64,000 bases of DNA from Kitasatospora cineracea (lineage in GTDB: Bacteria; Actinomycetota; Actinomycetes; Streptomycetales; Streptomycetaceae): assembly GCF_003751605.1 (NCBI RefSeq), contig NZ_RJVJ01000001.1, positions 1,612,001 through 1,676,000 of the forward strand. Direction: 5' to 3'. A model generated the notes under the pieces. It was given only the letters and a program-made list of their open reading frames with translations, did not search any database and was not told where the DNA came from. A program made the translations under genes and the position numbers. Shown here piece by piece: positions 1,389 through 10,190 of the stretch (positions are counted from its first letter, which is position 1; the number at the start of each line of letters is the position of its first letter).

Positions 1389-1544
1389 CGGTCCCCTTCC
1401 CACACTTCCGCCGACAGCGTCACATTAGGGGATCTACCGGACACCCTCCGCCCAGGCTCGCCGCCGCGGAAACCCTGCGCTCACCGCCCGGCGCCATGGG
1501 GTACAGTGGTCCTTGATCGGGCCGTCACCGACGGTCCGTCAGCT

Positions 1545-1615
1545 GCGGGCGTAGTTTAATGGTAGAACATGAGCTTCCCAAGCTTAGAGCGCGAGTTCGA
1601 TTCTCGTCGCCCGCT
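1545..1615 (+). tRNA. tRNA-Gly(CCC)
   Basis: Cloverleaf of 71 nt. The acceptor GCGGGCG pairs with CGCCCGC, the D arm is GTTT-AATGGTAG-AAC, the anticodon loop TTCCCAA places CCC at 1577-1579, and the T arm is CGAG-TTCGATT-CTCG. CCA is not encoded. A strong hairpin follows at once. Confidence 0.96.
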
Positions 1616-1620
1616 CCGCA

Positions 1621-1653
1621 GAGAGCCCCCAGGCCACCGGCCCGGGGGCTCTC
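1621..1653 (+). terminator. Hairpin terminator after tRNA-Gly
   Basis: A perfect 10-bp stem GAGAGCCCCC/GGGGGCTCTC with a GC-rich loop begins six bases after the tRNA. There is no long T tract, as is usual in Streptomyces terminators. Confidence 0.75.
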
Positions 1654-1806
1654 GTCGTTTCCGGGTGCGGGCGGCAGGTGCGGGCGGTGGGTGCGGGCGG
1701 TGGGGCTCGTGGGCCTCGGGGGTGGTGCGGGGGGCTGCTTATGCTGGAGGGTCAAGATTGTTCGGGGAGCGGCGAGTTAACGGCTGAGCGATTCCTGGAG
1801 GTCGCG

Positions 1807-3096
1807 GTGGGTGTCTGTGTGATCGGGGCGGGGCTGTCGGGGCTGGCGGCGGCGTACGCGCTGCGCGAGCGCGGGCTGGACTTCGTCTGCCTGGAGAAGT
1901 CGCCCGGGGTGGGCGGGATCTGGCGGCGGCCGTCGGCGGGGGAGCCGGGGCCGGCGTACCGGGCGCTGCACCTGAACAGCGCGAAGCAGCTGACCGGCTT
2001 CGAGTCCTTCCCGATGGGGGAGGAGATGCCGCTGTACCCGAGCCACCGGGACATGGCGGTGTACCTGCGGGAGTTCGCCGAGCGGGCGGGGCTGCTGCCG
2101 TACGTCGAGTTCCGCACCGAGGTGGTGTCGATACGTCAGGACCCGCACGGCGTATGGACGGTGGTGAGCCGGGACGCGCGGGGGGTGGAGAGCAGCCGGA
2201 CCTTCGACCAGGTGGTGGTGGCGTCGGGGCACCACGACGTGCCGCTGCTGCCGAACCCGCTGCCGGCGGGGGCGGAGACGTTCACCGGCCGGGTGCTGCA
2301 CTCGATGGACTACGTGGACGGCGCCGAGTTCGCCGGGCAGCGGGTGGTCGTGGTGGGCCTGGGGGCGTCGGCGGTGGACATCGCGGCGGACGTGTCGCGG
2401 CACGCGGAGCGCACCGTGCTCTCGGTGCGCAACGGCCAGCACGTGGTGCCCAAGCAGCTGTTCGGCATGTCGGTGGACATGATCGCGGTGGCGCCCTGGT
2501 TCAGCTCCAAGTCGCTGCCGGAGCAGCAGGAGTTCATCGAGGAGGCGCTGCGGGTGGCCCGCGGCCCGCTGACCGAGTACGGCCTGCCGGAGCCGCCGAA
2601 CCGGATCTTCCAGTCGCCGGTGACGGTCTCGGACGAGATCCTGCAGCGGATCCGGCACGGCGCGGTCCGGCCGCGTCCGGGCATCGCGGAGCTGTCCGGG
2701 TCCACGGTCCGCTTCACGGACGGGAGCGCCGAGGAGGCGGACGCGCTGGTGTTCTGCACCGGCTTCGGCTGGACGATGCCGTTCCTGCCGGCGGACCACC
2801 CGGCGGGCGGGCGGGGCCCGGTGCGGCTGTACCGGCGGGTGGTGGACCCGGAGCGGCCGGGGCTGTACTTCCTGGGCCTGGTCCGCCCGGTGGGCTCGAT
2901 CACCCGGCTGGTGGAGGCGCAGGCGCGCTGGGTGGTGCGGCTGGTGACCGGCGAGTCGATGCTGCCGGGCGCCGACGTGATGGGCAAGGAGATCGACGGC
3001 TACCTGGAGGGCATCGGCCGCCGGTACGGGCTGTCGGCGGGGGCCTCGGTCCAGGTCGACGTGAACGGCTACCTGCGCCAGCTGGCGGAGGCGTAG
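1807..3096 (+). CDS. Flavin-containing monooxygenase (FMO family)
   Basis: A 429-residue FAD/NADPH monooxygenase. The N-terminal Rossmann motif [19 protein letters not shown] is followed by GGIW, an FMO-type signature [11 protein letters not shown] near residue 170, and a second nucleotide-binding motif [17 protein letters not shown] near residue 185. The GTG at 1807 is chosen because GGAGG lies five bases upstream and the FAD motif follows directly; longer in-frame starts add unlikely sequence. It converges on the prenyltransferase gene at 3209-4492. In S. coelicolor the FMO SCO7468 acts with the prenyltransferase SCO7467, turning prenylated tryptophan into an indole-3-acetaldoxime; this protein may do the same, which is inferred from gene pairing. 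Other N- or C-oxidations cannot be excluded. Confidence 0.85.
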
Positions 3097-3208
3097 CACC
3101 TGGGCCGCAGCGGAGGGTTCCTCGGGATGCCCGTGATACAGGGGGTCACGGGGTTTCCTCCGGCAGCTGCGGCCGTCGGCGGACGGCGGGGAGCGGCGGT
3201 GCGGCGGG

Positions 3209-4492
3209 TCAGCGCACCGGCCGCGGTCCGCTCGGCCGTCCGCCGGGCGGGCGGACCTGGTACGCCTCGGAGGAGAGGTAGGCGGTCAGCCGGGCGGCGC
3301 GCCCCTCCTGGTGGACCATGGCCAGGTAGGCGATCAGGCCGACGCCGTCCTCGAGCCGTCGCGGGGTGAGGGCGCCCAACGAGTCGCGGAGCACGGCGGG
3401 GTCGATCCCGTACCGGGTCAGCAGGGTATCGGCGCGGCCCAGCACCTCGCGGTCGTCGCGGGCGTAGTCGCGGACCGGGACGTGCAGGGTGAAGCCGCTG
3501 GGGTGGTCCGCCGCCGGGTCGGTGAAGGCGTGGCAGGTGAGCACGGGGCGGCGGTCGAAGACGCCGTCGCGGCCGTCCGGCAGCCCGGAGGCGGTGTGCA
3601 GGAAGGCTTCGGTCTCGGCGGGCGAGGGGCCGCCGGCCATCCGGTTGAGCGTGCTGACGGTGGAGGCCCGCAGCTCGTGGTGGGCGGTGTACAGCTTCAG
3701 CCGGGGGGTGTCCCAGTCGCCGAGGTCGAGGGCGAGGAAGACCAGCCGGTCGGCGGGCGGGAGGCTGTCGTACGCCCGGTGGTGGCCGAGCCGGCGCAGG
3801 GCCTCGCGCACGGTGGCCCCGGCCCGGTCGGGGCCGGACGCGGAGGGGTTGAGGTAGGCCTTCATCCGGGGGACGCCGCCGGGGGACAGCTCCAGGGCGA
3901 TCCAGAGCGCGAAGCTCCCCTGCGGGTCGTCGGGGAGGAAGAGGTCCTGGATCAGGTCGAGTTGGTCGGTGGCGATGTCCCAGCGGCGGGCCAGTTCGTG
4001 CACCGCGCGCAGGGCGAGCCGGCCGCTCTCGCCCAGGGTGCCGAAGCCGCTGGCCGGTTCGAGCAGGATCCGCAGCGAGGGGGTGGTGCCGGCGGACAGC
4101 GAGAGCGAGAACTCGACGGGGGTGTGGTCGTCGGAGAGGAAGGTCCGGACGGCGGGCGGCAGGTCGAGCGGGCGGTGCACCACCGGGCCGAGCGCGTCGG
4201 TCAGGGCGCGGGCGTAGGCGGCGGAGTCGCTCGCGTCCAGACCCACCAGTGCGCACAGGTCGAGGAGTTGACGGGCCGTGTGGCCGCCGACGGTGCGTCC
4301 GGACGGTCTGGGCGGCAACAGAGCTGTCCCCCGGCCGAGTGGCCGGGGGACGTCGGTGCGGAGAGGGCGGCCGCCGGGAGCGGTGGGCCCGGGGAGGAAC
4401 GGGCTGCGGGTCTCGGCGGCGTCTTGGGATATGTGGTCCACGACACCCTCCTGTTCTCCGGTCATCGGCGCCATGGCATATGGCGCGGGCAT
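3209..4492 (-). CDS. Aromatic (indole) prenyltransferase, DMATS/ABBA type
   Basis: About 427 residues. Repeated PT-barrel strands typical of tryptophan dimethylallyltransferases are visible: VEFSLSLSAG, PSLRILLEP, PRMKAYLNP, PRLKLYTAHHELRA and ARLTAYLSSEAY. The paired Arg/Lys and Tyr residues in these strands normally bind the diphosphate of DMAPP. The expected reaction is transfer of a dimethylallyl group onto tryptophan or another indole, without an Asp-rich motif. The N-terminal 60 residues are low-complexity and no clear ribosome binding site precedes any of the ATGs at 4492, 4474 or 4465, so the start is uncertain. The gene lies 66 bp downstream of the conservon P450 on the same strand with no strong hairpin between them, so read-through is possible. 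Regiospecificity cannot be told from sequence. Confidence 0.85.
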   Translation of the reverse strand: MPAPYAMAPMTGEQEGVVDHISQDAAETRSPFLPGPTAPGGRPLRTDVPRPLGRGTALLPPRPSGRTVGGHTARQLLDLCALVGLDASDSAAYARALTDALGPVVHRPLDLPPAVRTFLSDDHTPVEFSLSLSAGTTPSLRILLEPASGFGTLGESGRLALRAVHELARRWDIATDQLDLIQDLFLPDDPQGSFALWIALELSPGGVPRMKAYLNPSASGPDRAGATVREALRRLGHHRAYDSLPPADRLVFLALDLGDWDTPRLKLYTAHHELRASTVSTLNRMAGGPSPAETEAFLHTASGLPDGRDGVFDRRPVLTCHAFTDPAADHPSGFTLHVPVRDYARDDREVLGRADTLLTRYGIDPAVLRDSLGALTPRRLEDGVGLIAYLAMVHQEGRAARLTAYLSSEAYQVRPPGGRPSGPRPVR

Positions 4493-4558
4493 TCGCGCTG
4501 ATTACCCGGGTTTTTCAGGGTTCATGCCGTAATGACGGGGAGACAAGTGTTGTGAAGG

Positions 4559-5881
4559 TCACTTGGACAACCAGTTGAGGAACTGGCTCCAACGTCCACC
4601 CTTTCCGGCGGGTTGTGCGGGCTGGACCGGCTTGGCGGCCTCGGCGGGCTGCGGGCGCTGGGCCGACTCGCTCGGGGTGAACCGGACGGGCAGCGAGACC
4701 AGCGCGCGGTTGAACGGGCCGGGGCGCCAGCTCAACATCTGCTCCGGGACGGCGAGTTCGATGTCCGGCAGCTTGTTGAACAGGTTCTCCAGCGCGGTCA
4801 TGGCGATCTGCCGGGCCGGGTCCTTGGACGGGCAGGCGTGCGGTCCGGCGCTCCAGGCCAGGTGGGCCCGGCTGCTGGCGCGGCGCTCGGCGGCCAGGAT
4901 CGGGCTGCTGTTGGCGGCCGCGTAGCTGACCAGCAGCAGGTCGCCGGCCTGGACCTTCTCGCCGGCGAACTCCCCGTCGGAGGCGGGGTAGTGCGGGCCG
5001 AGGTTGGAGATCGGCGGGTTCTCCCACAGGGTGTCGTCGATCGCCTCGTCGATCAGACCGCCCTGGTGCGCGTAGGCGTCGTGGGTGAGCAGCCGGTGCA
5101 GGGTGTTGCCGAGCAGGTTGCCGAGCGGTTCGACGCCGGCGCCCAGCAGCAGCGAGAGCTGGTGGACCATCTCCTCGTCGGTGAGCTTGGCGTGGTGCTG
5201 CAGCAGCCAGGAGGCGACGTCCTCGCCGGGACGGCTGCGCTTGAGCGCGACCAGCTCGCCGACCGCGCCGAACAGCACCTGGGCGGACTGCTCGGCGTTC
5301 ACGCCGTCGAACATGCCGGAGATGCCGAACATCACCCGGTCGCCGATGTCGGCGGGGCAGCCGAACAGCTCGTTGAAGACGAACAGCGGCAGCTGCTTGG
5401 CGTAGGTGCTCAGCAGGTCCGCGGAGCCGCGGTAGCCGAACTGGGCGAGCAGGAAGTCGGAGACCTGCCGGGTGCTGCGGGCCAGCCGGCGCTGGTCGAC
5501 CCGGGCCATGCTGTCGGTGATGGCCTGACGCAGCCGCAGGTGCTCGGCGCCGTCCGAGAACAGCGCGTTCGAGCGGTGCACCAGCAGCGGCAGCACCGGG
5601 CTGTCCATCGGGATCCGGCCCTCGTTGAACTCCCGCCAGCGGCGGGAGTCACGACGGTAGGAGGTGGGGTCCTGCAGCAGCTGCAGGGCGGCCGAGTACT
5701 CGGTGACCAGGGTGGCGTTCACCCCGGGGGAGAGCTCGACCGGGGCGGTCGGGCCGTAGTGCCGGAGGTAGTCGTAGTACGACTGCGGGTCGGCGGCGAA
5801 CTCCGGTCCGTACAGCGGCACTCGGCCGCCGTGGGCCGGGCACCCGGGCGGGGGTACCGGGGCGGAAGACTGAGCGTCCAT
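4559..5881 (-). CDS. cvnE: Conservon cytochrome P450, CYP157-like
   Basis: A 440-residue P450-fold protein, last gene of a conservon (cvnA-B-C-D-E). The heme loop SAGPHACPSKDPARQIA near residue 350 keeps the cysteine ligand. The K-helix ExxR motif is absent: the site reads DDTLWENPP near residue 285. The I-helix acid/Thr pair is altered too (GAGVEPLGN near residue 250, Pro in place of Thr). Loss of ExxR is documented for the CYP157 family of S. coelicolor, whose members lie in conservons. A C-terminal Ala/Pro-rich tail (residues 405-430) is unusual. AGGAG about 11 bases before the ATG at 5881 supports the start. It may act in or with the membrane-associated conservon complex; oxygenase activity is uncertain. 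Confidence 0.9.
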   Translation of the reverse strand: MDAQSSAPVPPPGCPAHGGRVPLYGPEFAADPQSYYDYLRHYGPTAPVELSPGVNATLVTEYSAALQLLQDPTSYRRDSRRWREFNEGRIPMDSPVLPLLVHRSNALFSDGAEHLRLRQAITDSMARVDQRRLARSTRQVSDFLLAQFGYRGSADLLSTYAKQLPLFVFNELFGCPADIGDRVMFGISGMFDGVNAEQSAQVLFGAVGELVALKRSRPGEDVASWLLQHHAKLTDEEMVHQLSLLLGAGVEPLGNLLGNTLHRLLTHDAYAHQGGLIDEAIDDTLWENPPISNLGPHYPASDGEFAGEKVQAGDLLLVSYAAANSSPILAAERRASSRAHLAWSAGPHACPSKDPARQIAMTALENLFNKLPDIELAVPEQMLSWRPGPFNRALVSLPVRFTPSESAQRPQPAEAAKPVQPAQPAGKGGRWSQFLNWLSK

Positions 5882-5896
5882 GGCTGCGTGTTGCTC

Positions 5897-6508
5897 CTAG
5901 CTGGCGCGGTCCAGCAAATAGCGGACGAGAGTGGTGAGTGCGGCGGCCGACGATTTCTCGTTGCGCGCGTCGCAGGTGACGACCGGGGTTTCGTCGAGCA
6001 GGTCGAGGGCCTCCCGCAGCGCCCGCTCGGCGCGCTCCGGGTTTCCGTCGAAGTGGTTGACGGCGATGGCGTAGTCCAGCCCGTACTGCTCGATCAGGTC
6101 GATGACGGGGAAGGAGTCGGCGAGCCGTTCGGGGTCGACCAGGATCAGCGCGCCGAGGGCGCCGCGGGCCATGTCCTCCCACATCTGGACGAAGCGGGTC
6201 TGCCCGGGGGTACCGAACAGGTAGAGCACCACGCGTTCGCTGATGGTGAGGCGGCCGAAGTCCAGGGCGACCGTGGTGGTGGTCTTGCCCCGGACGCCCT
6301 TGAGGTCGTCGACGGCCTCGGCGGCCTGGGTCATGGTCTCTTCGGTGGACAGCGGTTCGATCTCGGAGATCGAGCCGATGAAGGTGGTCTTGCCGACGGC
6401 GAAGTGCCCGACGACCAGGATCTTCACGGCGGTCTGGGTGGCACCTCCGGCGACGTAGTCGTCGGTGGTCAGCCCGCCCCGGTCATCCGAACTTGCGGTG
6501 AAGCCCAT
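5897..6508 (-). CDS. cvnD: Conservon small GTPase
   Basis: A 203-residue Ras-like ATP/GTP-binding protein. The P-loop is GHFAVGKTT near residue 34, and switch II is FGTPGQTRF in place of the classic DxxG. Conserved threonines (GKTTTTVALDFG) and an NHFD guanine-specificity loop follow. Conservon D proteins are GTPases that associate with the A, B and C proteins at the membrane, resembling eukaryotic G-protein modules. The start overlaps the end of cvnC by 26 bp, indicating translational coupling. The assignment rests on both motif and gene order. Confidence 0.93.
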   Translation of the reverse strand: MGFTASSDDRGGLTTDDYVAGGATQTAVKILVVGHFAVGKTTFIGSISEIEPLSTEETMTQAAEAVDDLKGVRGKTTTTVALDFGRLTISERVVLYLFGTPGQTRFVQMWEDMARGALGALILVDPERLADSFPVIDLIEQYGLDYAIAVNHFDGNPERAERALREALDLLDETPVVTCDARNEKSSAAALTTLVRYLLDRAS

Positions 6509-6863
6509 TGAGCACCTCCTCCAGAAGGTCCTTGTCGGCGTTCCGGGCCCTCGGGACCGGCGGACGGGTCATCAGGTGGCCGCTCTCGGTGAGCGCGGCC
6601 AGGACGATGCGGACCACGCCCAGCGGGAGCCGGGTGTGACCCGCCACCTCGGCGACCGAGAGGTAGCCGGCCGAGCAGATGTCCAGCAGGCGCTGCTCCT
6701 CCGGGGTGAGCCGGGTGGGGCGGCGCCCTTCCTCCGGGGTGGCGGTGACCAGGGTGATCAGGGACAGCTGCTGCTCGTCGGGCAGCTCCCGCCCCTTGGT
6801 GATGATGTAGGCGCGGACTAAGTCCACGGGCTCGAACTCGAAGTCCTCGCCGCTGCCCCTCAC
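6483..6863 (-). CDS. cvnC: Conservon DUF742 protein
   Basis: A 126-residue DUF742 protein with the family core PVDLVRAYIITKGR, a winged-helix-like segment CSAGYLSVAEVAGHTRLPLGVVRIVL and the terminal LLEEVLNGLHRKFG. DUF742 proteins are the third component of conservons; their biochemical role is unclear, but the central segment resembles a DNA- or protein-binding winged helix. It overlaps cvnB by 4 bp (ATGA) and cvnD by 26 bp, so it is certainly part of the same operon. Confidence 0.93.
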   Translation of the reverse strand: MRGSGEDFEFEPVDLVRAYIITKGRELPDEQQLSLITLVTATPEEGRRPTRLTPEEQRLLDICSAGYLSVAEVAGHTRLPLGVVRIVLAALTESGHLMTRPPVPRARNADKDLLEEVLNGLHRKFG

Positions 6864-7261
6864 CGGCGGACCCCCAGGTCCTCGCGGGGCGGCGCGGCGA
6901 GGAACTTGCCGAGCTGGCCCACGAGTTGCTGCATCCGGAAGGTGATGTCCTGCATGTCGACGTCCGGCAGCGCGGAGACGCCCAGGTAGGCGCCGTCACC
7001 GGCGGAGATCAGGAACACCCAGCCGCCGTCGAACTCGACCAGGGTCTGCTGCCAGCGCTGCGTCGGGTTGTCGCAGAAGAAGCCGAGCGAGCGGCTGAGC
7101 GACTGCACGCCGCTCATCGCGGCGGCCACCCGGTCGGCGTTGTCCTTGTCGATGTCCCTGGTGCGGGCCATCAGCAGGCCGTCGGCGGAGATCAGGACCG
7201 CGTGCAGGGCCCCGGGGATCTCCAGCGCGCTGTCGAGCATCCAAGACAGATCGTCGTTCAC
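6860..7261 (-). CDS. cvnB: Conservon roadblock/LC7 protein
   Basis: A 133-residue roadblock/LC7-fold protein containing IPGALHAVLISADGLLMART and GWVFLISAGDGAYLGVSA. Roadblock proteins often bind and regulate small GTPases, here presumably CvnD. It starts with MNDDLSWML at 7261 and overlaps cvnA by 4 bp. The short C-terminal tail (EDLGVRR) runs into the start of cvnC. Confidence 0.93.
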   Translation of the reverse strand: MNDDLSWMLDSALEIPGALHAVLISADGLLMARTRDIDKDNADRVAAAMSGVQSLSRSLGFFCDNPTQRWQQTLVEFDGGWVFLISAGDGAYLGVSALPDVDMQDITFRMQQLVGQLGKFLAAPPREDLGVRR

Positions 7262-8520
7262 GAGAACTCATGCCCTTCACTGCTTGCACCGCGGGTGCTG
7301 GTCGTCTGGTTCGCGTCGTCCCGCTGGGTGGCGCGACCGGACCTGGTGCCGCGCTGGAAAGCCCCCAGCATCGCCGCGGTCTGCGCCCCGGAGCGGGACG
7401 CGGGGGCGGCGGGCGCTGCGGGCGCGCCGTAGGGGGCGGATTCGGCCGTCGGGACGATCGCCATCGGCCGCTTGCGGCGGCGGATGGGCAGGCCGTCGTC
7501 GGTGGAGCCGAACGACTCGATCGCCGCGGGAGGGACTGCGGCGGCGGGCAGCGGGACCGGCTGCGCCGCCGGTCGGGCGACGGGTACGGGCGCCTGGCCC
7601 TGGACGGGTGCCTGGGGCTGGGCGGGGCCGGGGGCGGGCTGCTGGGGGCGCCGTTCCGGCATGTTGGTGAGCAGCTCGTGCGGCAGCAGCAGCACCGAGC
7701 GGACACCGCCGTACGGGGAGGAGGAGTCCACCGAGACCTCGAAGCCGAAGCGCTCGGAGAGCACGCCGATCACCGCGAGGCCGAACTGCGGCGGGTTGCC
7801 GAGTCCGCCGACGCCGGCGACCCGGTCGGTGGTCAGCAGCCGTTCCGCGCGGGCCCGTTCCTCGTCGTTCATGCCGACGCCGGCGTCGTCCACCACGACC
7901 ACCACGCCCTTGGGCACGGTGCGGATGTTGACCTCCACCACGGTGTCGGGGCTGGAGTACGAGGTCGCGTTGTCGAACAGCTCGGCCAGCGCCAGGGCGA
8001 CCGGCTCCACCGCGCGGCTGGAGATGCCGAAGTCCACCTGGGAGAGGATCTCCACCCGGCGGTAGTGGCGGATGCGGCCCTGCGCGGAGCGCACCACGTC
8101 GTACACCGAGGCGACGTCGCGGTGGCGGCCGAGCCAGCCGCCGCACAGGACGGCGATGGACTGGGCGCGGCGGCCGAACTGGGAGTTGGTGTGGTCGACC
8201 TCCAGGAGGTCCTGCAGGATCACCGACTCGCCGTACTTGACCTGCAGCCGGGAGAGGATCAACTGCTGTTCCGCCGCGAGGCCCTGGAGCGTCCGCATGG
8301 CGGACTTCAATACCGTTTTGGTTGCTTCGTCCGCTTGTTCCTGAGCGGAGGCGACCGACTGCGTATAGTGGTGTTCCAGGTCGGTGTAGTGCTCCCGGAG
8401 CCCGTCGATCTCCTGTCGGAGTGCCGCGGCTGCCTTGCGCTGGCGGACCACGATGAGGATCGCGGCGGCCAGGACGAGGAAGAGAACCCAGAGCAATGGG
8501 TTCGCTGTGTATTTCGTCAT
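7258..8520 (-). CDS. cvnA: Conservon sensor histidine-kinase-like ATPase
   Basis: 420 residues. One N-terminal membrane helix (about residues 9-25, LWVLFLVLAAAILIVV) is followed by a coiled-coil segment to about residue 80. A helical region leads to a GHKL ATPase domain with N box ELFDNATSYSSP near residue 187, G1 box DDAGVGM near 215 and NPPQFGLAVIGVL near 245. No canonical HExxP phosphoacceptor box is seen, as is usual for CvnA proteins. The last 120 residues are Pro/Ala-rich. It is the first gene of the conservon; a 15-bp palindrome lies 79 bp upstream. It probably senses an unknown signal at the membrane and passes it to CvnB/C/D. Confidence 0.92.
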   Translation of the reverse strand: MTKYTANPLLWVLFLVLAAAILIVVRQRKAAAALRQEIDGLREHYTDLEHHYTQSVASAQEQADEATKTVLKSAMRTLQGLAAEQQLILSRLQVKYGESVILQDLLEVDHTNSQFGRRAQSIAVLCGGWLGRHRDVASVYDVVRSAQGRIRHYRRVEILSQVDFGISSRAVEPVALALAELFDNATSYSSPDTVVEVNIRTVPKGVVVVVDDAGVGMNDEERARAERLLTTDRVAGVGGLGNPPQFGLAVIGVLSERFGFEVSVDSSSPYGGVRSVLLLPHELLTNMPERRPQQPAPGPAQPQAPVQGQAPVPVARPAAQPVPLPAAAVPPAAIESFGSTDDGLPIRRRKRPMAIVPTAESAPYGAPAAPAAPASRSGAQTAAMLGAFQRGTRSGRATQRDDANQTTSTRGASSEGHEFS

Positions 8521-8993
8521 AAGACTCTCTTCAGGCGACTGGCGGCCGACTGCTGAATCCCCGTCATCGCAGGGTGAACCCGCCGCTCCCCCAAGCGGGA
8601 TGATCGTATCATCGGGCGAACAGGTGAACGATCGTCCACATCGGCGTGAAGATGCGTCTGCACCGGGGTGGACAAGGGGAGTTGGAACCGCAGGTCAGCG
8701 CCCTGATCGATCGTCAGTACCCGGTCCGACCCGGCCCCCGCGGCCGGCTCACCGCCTCCCACCGGGCCATTTATCACAGGGCGGGCCCCAGGCGGGGGAG
8801 CAACGCGCGAGTTCCGGGGTTTTTCCGACGCGGCGTCAAGAAGTGCGCCATCATGCGGTCCGGCCGGTACCGGCCGGAGAGCGCCACGCCGCGCAACCTG
8901 CCGTTAAGGTGCGGACACACGATCCACCCCTCCCGCCGCGGATCCGGGGGCCGCCCCCCGGACCGCCCCCGGGCGGCCGAGCACGAGGTCTCC
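8521..8993. promoter_or_regulatory. Divergent intergenic region between cvnA and hydrolase gene
   Basis: This 473-bp non-coding stretch must hold the conservon promoter and that of the gene at 8994. A perfect palindrome GATGAT-CGT-ATCATC occupies 8599-8613, a possible operator. The ORFs that cross it have poor codon bias and no ribosome binding site. Nothing else is recognised. Confidence 0.5.
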
Positions 8994-9539
8994 ATGGAAT
9001 CCGTCACGTACGTGCACCTCGCGGGAATCGGCAACTCCGGTCCCGGGCACTGGCAGTACCGCTGGCACGCCGCCGACCCGCGCGCCGTCTGGGTCGAGCA
9101 CGACTCCTGGGACGACCCGGAGCGCGACGCCTGGGTCGCCGACCTGGACGCCGCCCTGCGGCGCACCCCGGGACCCAAGCTGGTCGTCGCCCACAGCCTC
9201 GGCTGCAGCACCCTGGTGGAGTGGGCCGCCGACCACGCCGACCCGGACGTCGTCGGCGCGCTGCTGGTCGCCGCCCCCGACCCGCACGGCCCCGCCTTCC
9301 CCGCCGGGGCCACCGGCTACCACCGTCCGCGCCCCGCGCCGCTGCCCTTCCGCACCCTCGTGGTGGCCAGCGCCGACGACCCCTACGCCACCCTCGACCA
9401 CGCCCGGGCCACCGCCGCCGCGCTCGGCGCCGAACTCGTCGAGGCCGGCCGGCTCGGCCACATCAACGCCGCCTCCGGCCTCGGCGACTGGCCCGACGGC
9501 CGCCGGCTGCTCGGCCGACTGCTCCCGTCCTCCGGCTGA
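8994..9539 (+). CDS. RBBP9/YdeN-type alpha/beta hydrolase
   Basis: A 181-residue serine hydrolase of the RBBP9/YdeN (DUF1247-like) family. Visible are the N-terminal HLAGIGNSGPGHWQ oxyanion region, the nucleophile elbow VVAHSLGCSTL near residue 67, an acid in ASADDPYA near residue 122, and a His in GRLGHINAASGLGDW near residue 153. Together these form a complete Ser-Asp-His triad. GAGG lies six bases before the ATG at 8994, while the longer frame upstream is not gene-like. The natural substrate is unknown for most members. It stands alone, flanked by the divergent conservon and a convergent membrane-protein gene. Confidence 0.85.
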   Translation: MESVTYVHLAGIGNSGPGHWQYRWHAADPRAVWVEHDSWDDPERDAWVADLDAALRRTPGPKLVVAHSLGCSTLVEWAADHADPDVVGALLVAAPDPHGPAFPAGATGYHRPRPAPLPFRTLVVASADDPYATLDHARATAAALGAELVEAGRLGHINAASGLGDWPDGRRLLGRLLPSSG

Positions 9540-9572
9540 CCGCTCGTCAACGGCGGTCCGCGGGAGCCGGGT

Positions 9573-10190
9573 TCAGCCGCCGGCGCGCCCGGGCCCGTCG
9601 TCCGGGCCGGCGAGCAGGAACGGCAGCAGGCCGCGTTCCAGCAGGGTGCTGCGCCAGGCGGTGCGGGCGGCCGCGACCTGCTGCTCGTGCTGCGGGTCGC
9701 CGGCCGGGTCGGTGCGCCGCCAGGCGGCGGTGAGCAGCAGACCGAGCAGCCCGGCCAGCGCGCCGGCCACCGCGACGGCGACGGTGGTCCAGGCGGCGGC
9801 GCGCAGTTCCCCGGCCGGTCCGGCGTGCGGGCGGGACAGGTCGAGGACGGCGCCGAGCAGGAAGAACACGGCGGCGGCGCTGCCGCTGACGATCGGCACG
9901 ACCAGGGCCAGCGCGCCCAGCCAGCCGGTGAGCCGCTCGCGCCGGTCGGCGGTCCGGGCGGGCGGTGCGGGGACGGTGTCCCGGAGCCGCCGGTAGGCCA
10001 GGTACTCGGGTTCGGCGGCGGCCAGGATCCGGGCGGAGTGCTGCCGGGCCAGGGTGCGCAGCCGGGTGGTCCGCCGGGGGTCGTCGGCCAGCGCGGCGCG
10101 CACCGCCGGGTCGGCCAGGGCCCGGCCCAGGGCGTACTCGAAGTCGGCCCGGTCCTGCTGGGTGGGGCCGCTGCCGGTGTGCGGGTCCAT
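9573..10190 (-). CDS. Two-helix membrane protein of unknown function
   Basis: A 205-residue protein. The first 75 residues are charged and helical (FEYALGRALADPAVRAALADDP), reminiscent of a soluble N-terminal domain. Two membrane segments follow: ALALVVPIVSGSAAAVFFLLGAV near residue 92 and a long hydrophobic stretch near 130-155. The tail returns to the cytoplasm (QHEQQVAAARTAWRSTLLERGLLPFLL). It is not recognised as a named family. It is 84 bp downstream of the LCP gene on the same strand and could be co-transcribed with it. Confidence 0.7.
   Translation of the reverse strand: MDPHTGSGPTQQDRADFEYALGRALADPAVRAALADDPRRTTRLRTLARQHSARILAAAEPEYLAYRRLRDTVPAPPARTADRRERLTGWLGALALVVPIVSGSAAAVFFLLGAVLDLSRPHAGPAGELRAAAWTTVAVAVAGALAGLLGLLLTAAWRRTDPAGDPQHEQQVAAARTAWRSTLLERGLLPFLLAGPDDGPGRAGG

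Follow-up and report, generated by a model that had tools for sequence, protein, structure and literature searches.

Indole prenyltransferases (PTs) of the IptA kind occur in two types of cluster as defined by Ozaki 2013 (PMC3617294), type A with a tryptophanase and type B with an FMO. In the type B example, SCO7467 produces 5-dimethylallyltryptophan and SCO7468 makes the aldoxime, the dehydratase of the pathway being left unidentified in that report. All of the more than ten IptA-like clusters retrieved there carry a conservon, some of them together with a P450, and a signalling role was suggested for the conservon. Conservon P450s devoid of the EXXR motif are described as CYP157, with the motifs EVLW or EQSLW (PMC3599690), while P450s of the CvnE type accompany CvnA proteins lacking a sensory domain, and a contact between CvnE11 and CvnA11 has been predicted (PMC13343842). 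Here we describe a stretch of 64,000 nucleotides from Kitasatospora cineracea (contig NZ_RJVJ01000001.1, positions 1,612,001 to 1,676,000; the window in the following), in which a PT gene lies between an FMO gene and a conservon with a P450, and we focus on the short gap between this P450 and the PT.

By its gene content the window represents the type B cluster in its Kitasatospora form, attached to a conservon and combining a PT of the IptA/SCO7467 type, an adjoining FMO and an upstream four-gene conservon with the optional P450. Open reading frames (ORFs) and Pfam searches bore out the gene calls of the original prediction, with the FMO on the plus strand and the DMATS-type PT, the P450 and CvnD, CvnC, CvnB and CvnA all on the minus strand. 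Its likeness to the SCO7467/SCO7468 module holds for the kind of cluster, the PT grouping with Kitasatospora type B PTs (100/100) in trees built without SCO7467 and SCO7468. PT and FMO had also been called a pair, which is right for neighbours and wrong for an operon, because the two genes stand tail to tail. The proposed tie between PT and conservon is backed by conserved synteny: in the 394 Streptomycetaceae genomes compared, all 63 adjacent P450–PT pairs lie on one strand and all 51 PT–FMO pairs converge, an arrangement that on these counts is not due to chance. Such a tie had already been proposed by Ozaki 2013 (PMC3617294), so the gene association is not new. Apparently new and testable are a promoter-like element, a presumably inherited start and the proposed replacement of one gene by another in the slot behind the P450; in the literature searched, mostly titles and abstract openings with few subscription journals and no supplements, no upstream ORF, relic of a P450 or promoter was mentioned for the stretch between a conservon P450 and a PT. 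Taken together, we consider it likely that this type B cluster sits on a conservon in which the PT replaced a second P450 and inherited its promoter and start, with the conservon P450, CvnE, acting as input protein.

A promoter-like element in the P450–PT gap

The gap holds a promoter-like element that we call E1 (Table 1). Its pattern [AG][CT]AT-N16-GGGTA is present in all 70 junctions of a P450 with a PT behind it on one strand (loci without that arrangement were excluded), always at a spacing of 16 nt out of the 14–19 nt allowed. It lies 23–62 nt past the P450 stop, in 58 of the 70 at 31 or 32 nt, and wherever a start codon with a Shine–Dalgarno sequence (SD) was found it follows 43–62 nt past E1. 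Random 145-nt stretches of the loci matched the pattern in 103 of 40000 cases. Dropped from the 70 were two copies (L047 and L133; L-numbers denote the loci and G-numbers the genomes compared), L138 as a near-copy of L037, L001 and the short loci L082–L111. The end of the P450 is visible in 29 of these short loci, 15 of which repeat junctions of the 70, the other 14 forming a held-out set. E1 fits exactly in 12 of the 14 held-out junctions; in the two misses, L095 and L109, both halves are present by eye, with spacings of 15 and 20.

E1 resembles promoters of SigB homologues in S. coelicolor, such as SCO0566p with GCATAA-N14-GGGTAT, in GNNT, in the 14-nt spacer between the hexamers and in GGGTA (PMC8346170). 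It differs at the sixth −10 base, which is A in the window and G in most relatives; the −10 hexamer of SCO1276p likewise ends in G (PMC8346170). Most likely the PT is transcribed from a SigB-type promoter of its own, besides any read-through from cvnE. E1 might instead be the operator of a regulator, a reading that could draw on the predominance of G at the last −10 base and on the bases conserved around both halves. The invariable 16-nt spacing, the regular distance to the SD start and the likeness to SCO0566p speak for a promoter, and we hold an operator to be improbable. A scan for sigma-70 promoters found none within 1400–9600. As a genome-wide regulon E1 was rejected: a strict form, which does not match the E1 of the window itself, gave 16 matches in 13 genomes, 7 at P450–PT junctions and 9 elsewhere, and the reversed control gave 22.

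According to the original prediction, the PT would be expressed by read-through from cvnE across a gap without a strong hairpin, and the P450 would tailor the prenylated indole, for instance by hydroxylation. The constant strand of P450 and PT and the lack of a terminator-like site in the gap agree with this, and folding of the gap as a terminator was unconvincing (z −1.7 and −1.0). However, the gap also holds the promoter-like element, and a hairpin of 11 bp lies inside the PT 5′ end. As sequence, the region from 4492 to 4559 thereby contains a putative promoter of its own, the element at 4527–4502, which is among the findings that the original prediction had named as refuting it. The case for read-through, which the PT does not need, is weakened, and E1 is kept in front of the PT even in genome G225 (locus L126), where the cluster P450 is gone. 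As the P450 has furthermore lost ExxR and the I-helix Thr, we regard read-through combined with hydroxylation as quite improbable.

The PT start and the short upstream ORF

The PT probably starts at GTG 4441 and not at ATG 4492; an SD with a start codon, either GTG or ATG, is conserved in all 8 loci aligned. With this start the distance between P450 and PT amounts to about 117 nt, and of the earlier description of a PT 66 bp behind the P450 on the same strand, order and strand stand and the distance probably does not. In 55 of the 70 loci the start codon past E1 opens a short ORF of 32–83 codons that precedes the PT separately, its stop overlapping the PT start by 4 nt (NTGA). In 12 loci the ORF is in frame with the PT (the window, L002, L003, L005, L007, L008, L010, L015, L020, L022, L040 and L063), and an SD start was not found in L050, L057 and L061. 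The held-out loci comprise 5 overlaps, 6 in-frame cases, the 2 misses of E1, which were left unscored, and 1 locus without a readable PT motif.

Start, SD and stop–start overlap being all conserved, the upstream ORF might encode a functional peptide whose fusion gives the PT an added function. Several observations argue otherwise. Across 41 type B upstream ORFs, palindrome codons included, the codon-position entropies are 0.66, 0.82 and 0.71, and they lack the third-position excess seen in the PT of the same 41 loci (0.45, 0.42 and 0.75), which leaves selection at the peptide level unsupported. Peptides from type A loci do not resemble those from type B, and the fused stretch is disordered: residues 1–64 of the PT, counted from ATG 4492, have a pLDDT below 50 in the AlphaFold2 model, the domain itself being of high confidence. 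Moreover, five related loci with an in-frame ORF (L005, L007, L010, L015 and L020) retain a palindrome of the leader that they read in another frame. We judge a functional peptide to be very unlikely.

This palindrome, GATACCCGCC-N6-GGCGGGTATC, occurs in the leader of 50 of the 70 junctions; its arms are invariant by construction because the search pattern demanded exact arms. Given the change of frame in the five loci, it is kept as nucleic acid. A role as a regulon-wide operator was rejected, 10 of 12 genomes having one site and 2 having none. The window, L002 and L063 show a hairpin, in the window at 4351–4326, somewhat further downstream than the palindrome of most relatives. Among the 8 aligned loci, the same three alone carry an inverted repeat GCGCCATATGCCATGGCGC in the P450–PT gap (window 4486–4468).

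The slot of a second P450

Other conservons have a paralogue of CvnE (about 55–59% identical) with a second P450 behind it, as assigned by Pfam in L127 and L128. E1 was found within 120 nt past the paralogue in 12 of 25 such junctions, 11 of them at +30/31, whereas the control windows had it in 103 of 40000. In junctions with E1, a distance of 43–47 nt from the element to the start of the second P450 is frequent (e.g. L158, L165, L170 and L127), as it is for the upstream ORFs. A hidden Markov model (HMM) was built from the N-termini recognised in 21 of the 25 junctions, the other 4, without a P[AST]PWG motif, being left out. When applied to 67 N-termini (55 separate, 12 fused), six exceeded all 1340 shuffles, the best of which reached 6.8 bits: L055 with 22.2 bits (E 3.9e-7), L062 with 14.7, L064 with 11.8, L034 with 8.8, L058 with 8.5 and L065 with 7.7 bits. 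In a tree of 53 P450s, which omits L182, 29 PT-linked and derived solo P450s lie on one side of a branch (100/99.6) and 24 from other conservons on the opposite side. The six HMM-positive loci fall, together with L050, in two basal PT-linked lineages of type A.

A single replacement of the second P450 by the PT, with promoter and start kept, is apparently the simplest reading. The PT gene would occupy the slot held by a second P450 in other conservons, having taken it over once and having retained the promoter and the translation start of the lost gene. What was left of the second P450 at its 5′ end would have turned into the short ORF, coupled in translation to the PT and, where the lineage of the window is concerned, fused to it.

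A number of points weigh against this proposal, which as a whole is built from sequence comparison and a structure model. The E1 pattern is post hoc, set after viewing the alignments; a stricter SigB-like pattern fits 12 of the 70 junctions, the match in L059 falling on the palindrome instead of E1, and was replaced by the looser one. Its low yield is due to the last −10 base, a G in most loci, and the −10 of the window reads GGGTAA and not GGGTAY. E1 is lacking in 13 of the 25 second-P450 junctions, and none of the type B upstream ORFs alone scores above the shuffles in the HMM. The direction of the replacement is inferred, because it depends on a midpoint root of the P450 tree, and for a few of the 24 tree rows classed as second-P450 conservons the gene behind the P450 was assumed. 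As to the family of the second P450, an assignment to CYP154 found no support: a PDB search with the one of L127 gave 5cje as best match (184 bits), none of the best 60 chains bore the label CYP154, and a search at 1e-60 likewise gave none.

The conservon P450 and its possible roles

The P450 of the window scores below the Pfam cut-off (18.5 vs 22.8 bits) and carries the marks of CYP157, in that ExxR is missing, W stands in for the Arg and the haem Cys is kept (DDTLW, GPHACPSK). In an alignment of 118 P450s, which includes the window and duplicates, the haem Cys is retained throughout and the K-helix Arg position is W throughout; the K-helix Glu position is D in 107, E in 9, H in 1 and A in 1, and the I-helix Thr position is P in 110 and A in 8. 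The window P450 thus lacks the ExxR and the I-helix Thr of an ordinary P450 monooxygenase, and because of this loss ordinary hydroxylation, and with it the suggested tailoring of a prenylated indole as a monooxygenase reaction, is doubtful. CvnA shows a single hydrophobic stretch near the N-terminus and an HATPase domain only; with one such segment, it has no extracytoplasmic domain between two segments. Both this CvnA without an extracytoplasmic sensory domain and the order cvnA-B-C-D (kinase-like, roadblock, DUF742, GTPase) are those of conservons with CvnE. Most likely CvnE works together with CvnA as input protein and not as an ordinary hydroxylase.

One form that such an input could take is a haem sensor: CvnE would bind an indole of the pathway or another ligand, made by the enzyme encoded behind it, and signal to CvnA and the GTPase. 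This would fit the company of CvnE and CvnA proteins without a sensory domain and the predicted CvnE11–CvnA11 contact (PMC13343842), the CvnA of the window itself, and the one uniform way in which the catalytic motifs are changed. Yet the P450 stands without an adjoining conservon at six places (G056, G078 C35, G081, G153, G225 and G217 C595), where the WSxF tail at its C-terminus persists as well. The fold lends the sensor no support, because the structure model of the P450 is of low confidence (mean pLDDT 54.5) and allowed no conclusion. A sensor is in our view a serious possibility that falls somewhat short of probable.

The C-terminal motif WSxFLxW (window 4559–4600) is also kept in CvnE paralogues. 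A tail specific to conservon P450s was rejected, the tail being kept where the conservon is gone; the tail pattern matches 88 of 94 P450s, and the 6 misses comprise 5 with a variant tail and L135, which is truncated where its contig ends.

Alternatively, the conservon P450 may supply the missing step of the pathway. Going by SCO7467 and SCO7468, the PT would add a dimethylallyl group to C5 or C6 of tryptophan, the FMO would convert the prenylated tryptophan into the aldoxime, and dehydration would give the acetonitrile. With iron(II) haem, the P450 could turn the FMO aldoxime into the nitrile with no need to activate oxygen, in line with motifs for oxygen activation that are lost while the Cys is retained, and the dehydratase is left unidentified by Ozaki 2013 (PMC3617294). 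The P450 is present in all 55 genomes with a type B FMO (a 56th match in G048, 44% identical, was excluded), in 53 of them beside the FMO, 4 of these without an adjoining PT. The known haem aldoxime dehydratase (PF13816) passes the cut-off in 7 of the 394 genomes, a single one of which has a type B FMO, and in none of 14 control genomes. Against a dehydratase, the P450 is also found in type A loci with a tryptophanase and no FMO, with a distant prenyltransferase (PT2) and alone. The type A loci read have it only where a conservon is present, which weighs against a purely biosynthetic role. In G225, PT, FMO and conservon (L126) persist without the P450, and a related solo copy lies elsewhere (L125). 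All in all, a dehydratase appears unlikely.

On a more tentative note, the slot behind the conservon P450 may be an exchangeable one for a ligand maker, either a second P450 or a PT with tryptophanase or FMO, whose product CvnE reads for the membrane GTPase; the PT would have inherited a stress-type promoter and start, with the 5′ stub coupling its translation. The findings would suggest that conservon P450s serve to read or handle what the enzyme encoded behind them makes. With a defined promoter-like element, a defined start and a proposed history of slot replacement, it becomes possible to address in S. coelicolor, S. lividans and other laboratory strains how the cluster is regulated, what the conservon P450 does and how the nitrile arises.

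Distribution of the P450 and its neighbours

Among 80 named PT loci, cvnA-B-C-D-P450-PT is the commonest context, occurring in Streptomyces, Kitasatospora and Actinacidiphila. P450 copies above 600 bits number 79, in 77 of the 394 genomes; their neighbours are PT and FMO in 49 cases, PT without FMO in 14, a weakly similar PT in 5, FMO without PT in 4 and neither in 7. Among the last seven, the copies in G042 and G054 are accompanied by the distant PT2, and a contig edge truncates G217 C848. CvnD (E ≤ 1e-75) adjoins 66 of the 79 and lies within 8 kb of 6 more. Of the remaining 7, G066 has a CvnD broken across two frames; around the other six, the sequence read contains no conservon.

In the PT2 loci (L112–L116, L118 and L119), the P450 (70–74%) is divergent to a distant DMATS (25–28%; best PDB match of L112, 4yzj), behind which follow a protein of 212/213 aa and an ORF of about 280 aa that is weakly nucleotidyltransferase-like. 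The 212/213-aa companion is weakly like Haem_oxygenas_2 in L115 (20.4 vs a cut-off of 28.9 bits), and its homologue in L112 gave no Pfam and no PDB match. A conservon is near all of these loci except L116. L117, L122, L123 and L124 combine conservon, P450 and FMO without an adjoining PT, perhaps for a pathway to an indole aldoxime or nitrile that is not prenylated. In L120, L121, L125 and L134 the P450 stands alone, the sequence read around it containing neither conservon nor PT nor FMO, and the genes flanking L120 and L121 belong to families shared with the cluster of the window.

Nine PT–tryptophanase loci without a conservon (L069, L070, L074, L075, L137 and L142–L145) have no such P450. 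Five of these nine are accompanied by an nSTAND1–WD40-family protein (Pfam on L069, the others by similarity), L142 and L144 by a SARP-AAA regulator, and L143 and L145 by a large unidentified ORF, as if the signalling partner of PT–tryptophanase pairs were exchangeable. In L076–L081 (Micromonospora, Lentzea, Allorhizocola), a PT (37–40%) converges with a conservon without a P450 match, and a tryptophanase was called in 5 of the 6. In Actinomadura (L060:9968-12595), a PT (53%) has a tryptophan halogenase (PF04820) immediately behind it, and a halogenated prenyltryptophan is a possible product. Behind the conservon, P450 and PT of L026, on the strand of the PT, lies a 638-aa AMP-binding enzyme (L026:11339-13255), with no FMO match.

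Gene products and layout of the locus

The PT of the window matches PF11991 with 47.6 bits (cut-off 25) and stays below the cut-off of NCBIfam TIGR03429 (134.1 vs 163.85). Its nearest PDB relatives are of the DMATS type, namely 6zrz (404 bits), PriB 5inj (385 bits) and the 6-dimethylallyltryptophan synthase 7w8u (371 bits), and it is 81 and 83% identical to the PTs of K. phosalacinea strains. L076 was omitted from the PT tree, in which L142 carries the label A owing to a distant P450 nearby. The FMO matches PF00743 with 259.7 bits and PDB 8z12 with 628 bits over residues 1–428. No terminator-like site was called in the gap between FMO and PT; the fold of 3090–3212 has z −2.3 on the plus and −2.0 on the minus strand. 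The host genome of 8.76 Mb contains nine DUF742 (CvnC) genes and therefore several conservons. Just upstream of the FMO lies a tRNA-Gly (CCC) gene (1545–1617), followed by a strong hairpin (fold of 1560–1680, z −3.9).

Table 1. Features of the window discussed in the text, with positions counted from its first nucleotide.
Feature	Position	Strand	Remarks
FMO	1807..3096	+	SCO7468-like by family and context; GTG start; convergent with PT; PF00743; PDB 8z12
FMO–PT tail-to-tail gap	3097..3208		G+C-rich foldable stretch; no T-tract terminator called
DMATS/IptA-type indole PT	3209..4441	-	410 aa from GTG 4441; ORF open to ATG 4492
PT N-terminal extension (in-frame upstream ORF)	4301..4441	-	proposed relic of a second-P450 N-terminus; disordered in AlphaFold2 model
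Perfect 11-bp inverted repeat GTCCCCCGGCC-ACTC-GGCCGGGGGAC	4326..4351	-	inside PT 5′ end
SD AGGAGGGTGTC and start GTG	4439..4452	-	proposed inherited translational start; alignment of 8 loci
Promoter-like element E1 GCATGA-N14-GGGTAA	4502..4527	-	31 nt past P450 stop
CvnE-type, CYP157-like P450	4559..5881	-	Cys kept in GPHACPSK; K-helix DDTLW; I-helix AGVEP; C-terminal WSQFLNW
CvnD small GTPase	5897..6508	-	PF03029 104.3 bits; GTP_EFTU 35.3 bits
CvnC DUF742	6483..6863	-	PF05331 113 bits
CvnB roadblock/LC7	6860..7261	-	PF03259 (Robl_LC7) 76.6 bits
CvnA sensor-kinase-like protein	7258..8520	-	HATPase_c; one hydrophobic N-terminal segment

Comparison with known systems

With the type B cluster of SCO7467/SCO7468 (Ozaki 2013, PMC3617294) the window shares PT, FMO and conservon, and its PT groups with the FMO-type PTs. 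The upstream ORF, the promoter-like element, the putative relic of a second P450 and the PT fusion come from the present analysis and are not mentioned in the accessible text of that report. Type A clusters (IptA, tryptophanase) are like the window in conservon, P450 and promoter-like element; their upstream ORF overlaps the PT start in 11 of 14, and a tryptophanase lies downstream where the window has a convergent FMO. By its motifs the P450 is like CYP157 (PMC3599690), sharing W for the K-helix Arg, the kept Cys and the link to a conservon. The CvnE G protein system (PMC13343842) and the window agree in cvnA–D with a P450 and in a CvnA without a sensory domain. They part at the slot behind the P450, which holds the PT in the window and mostly a second P450 in the other CvnE conservons read.

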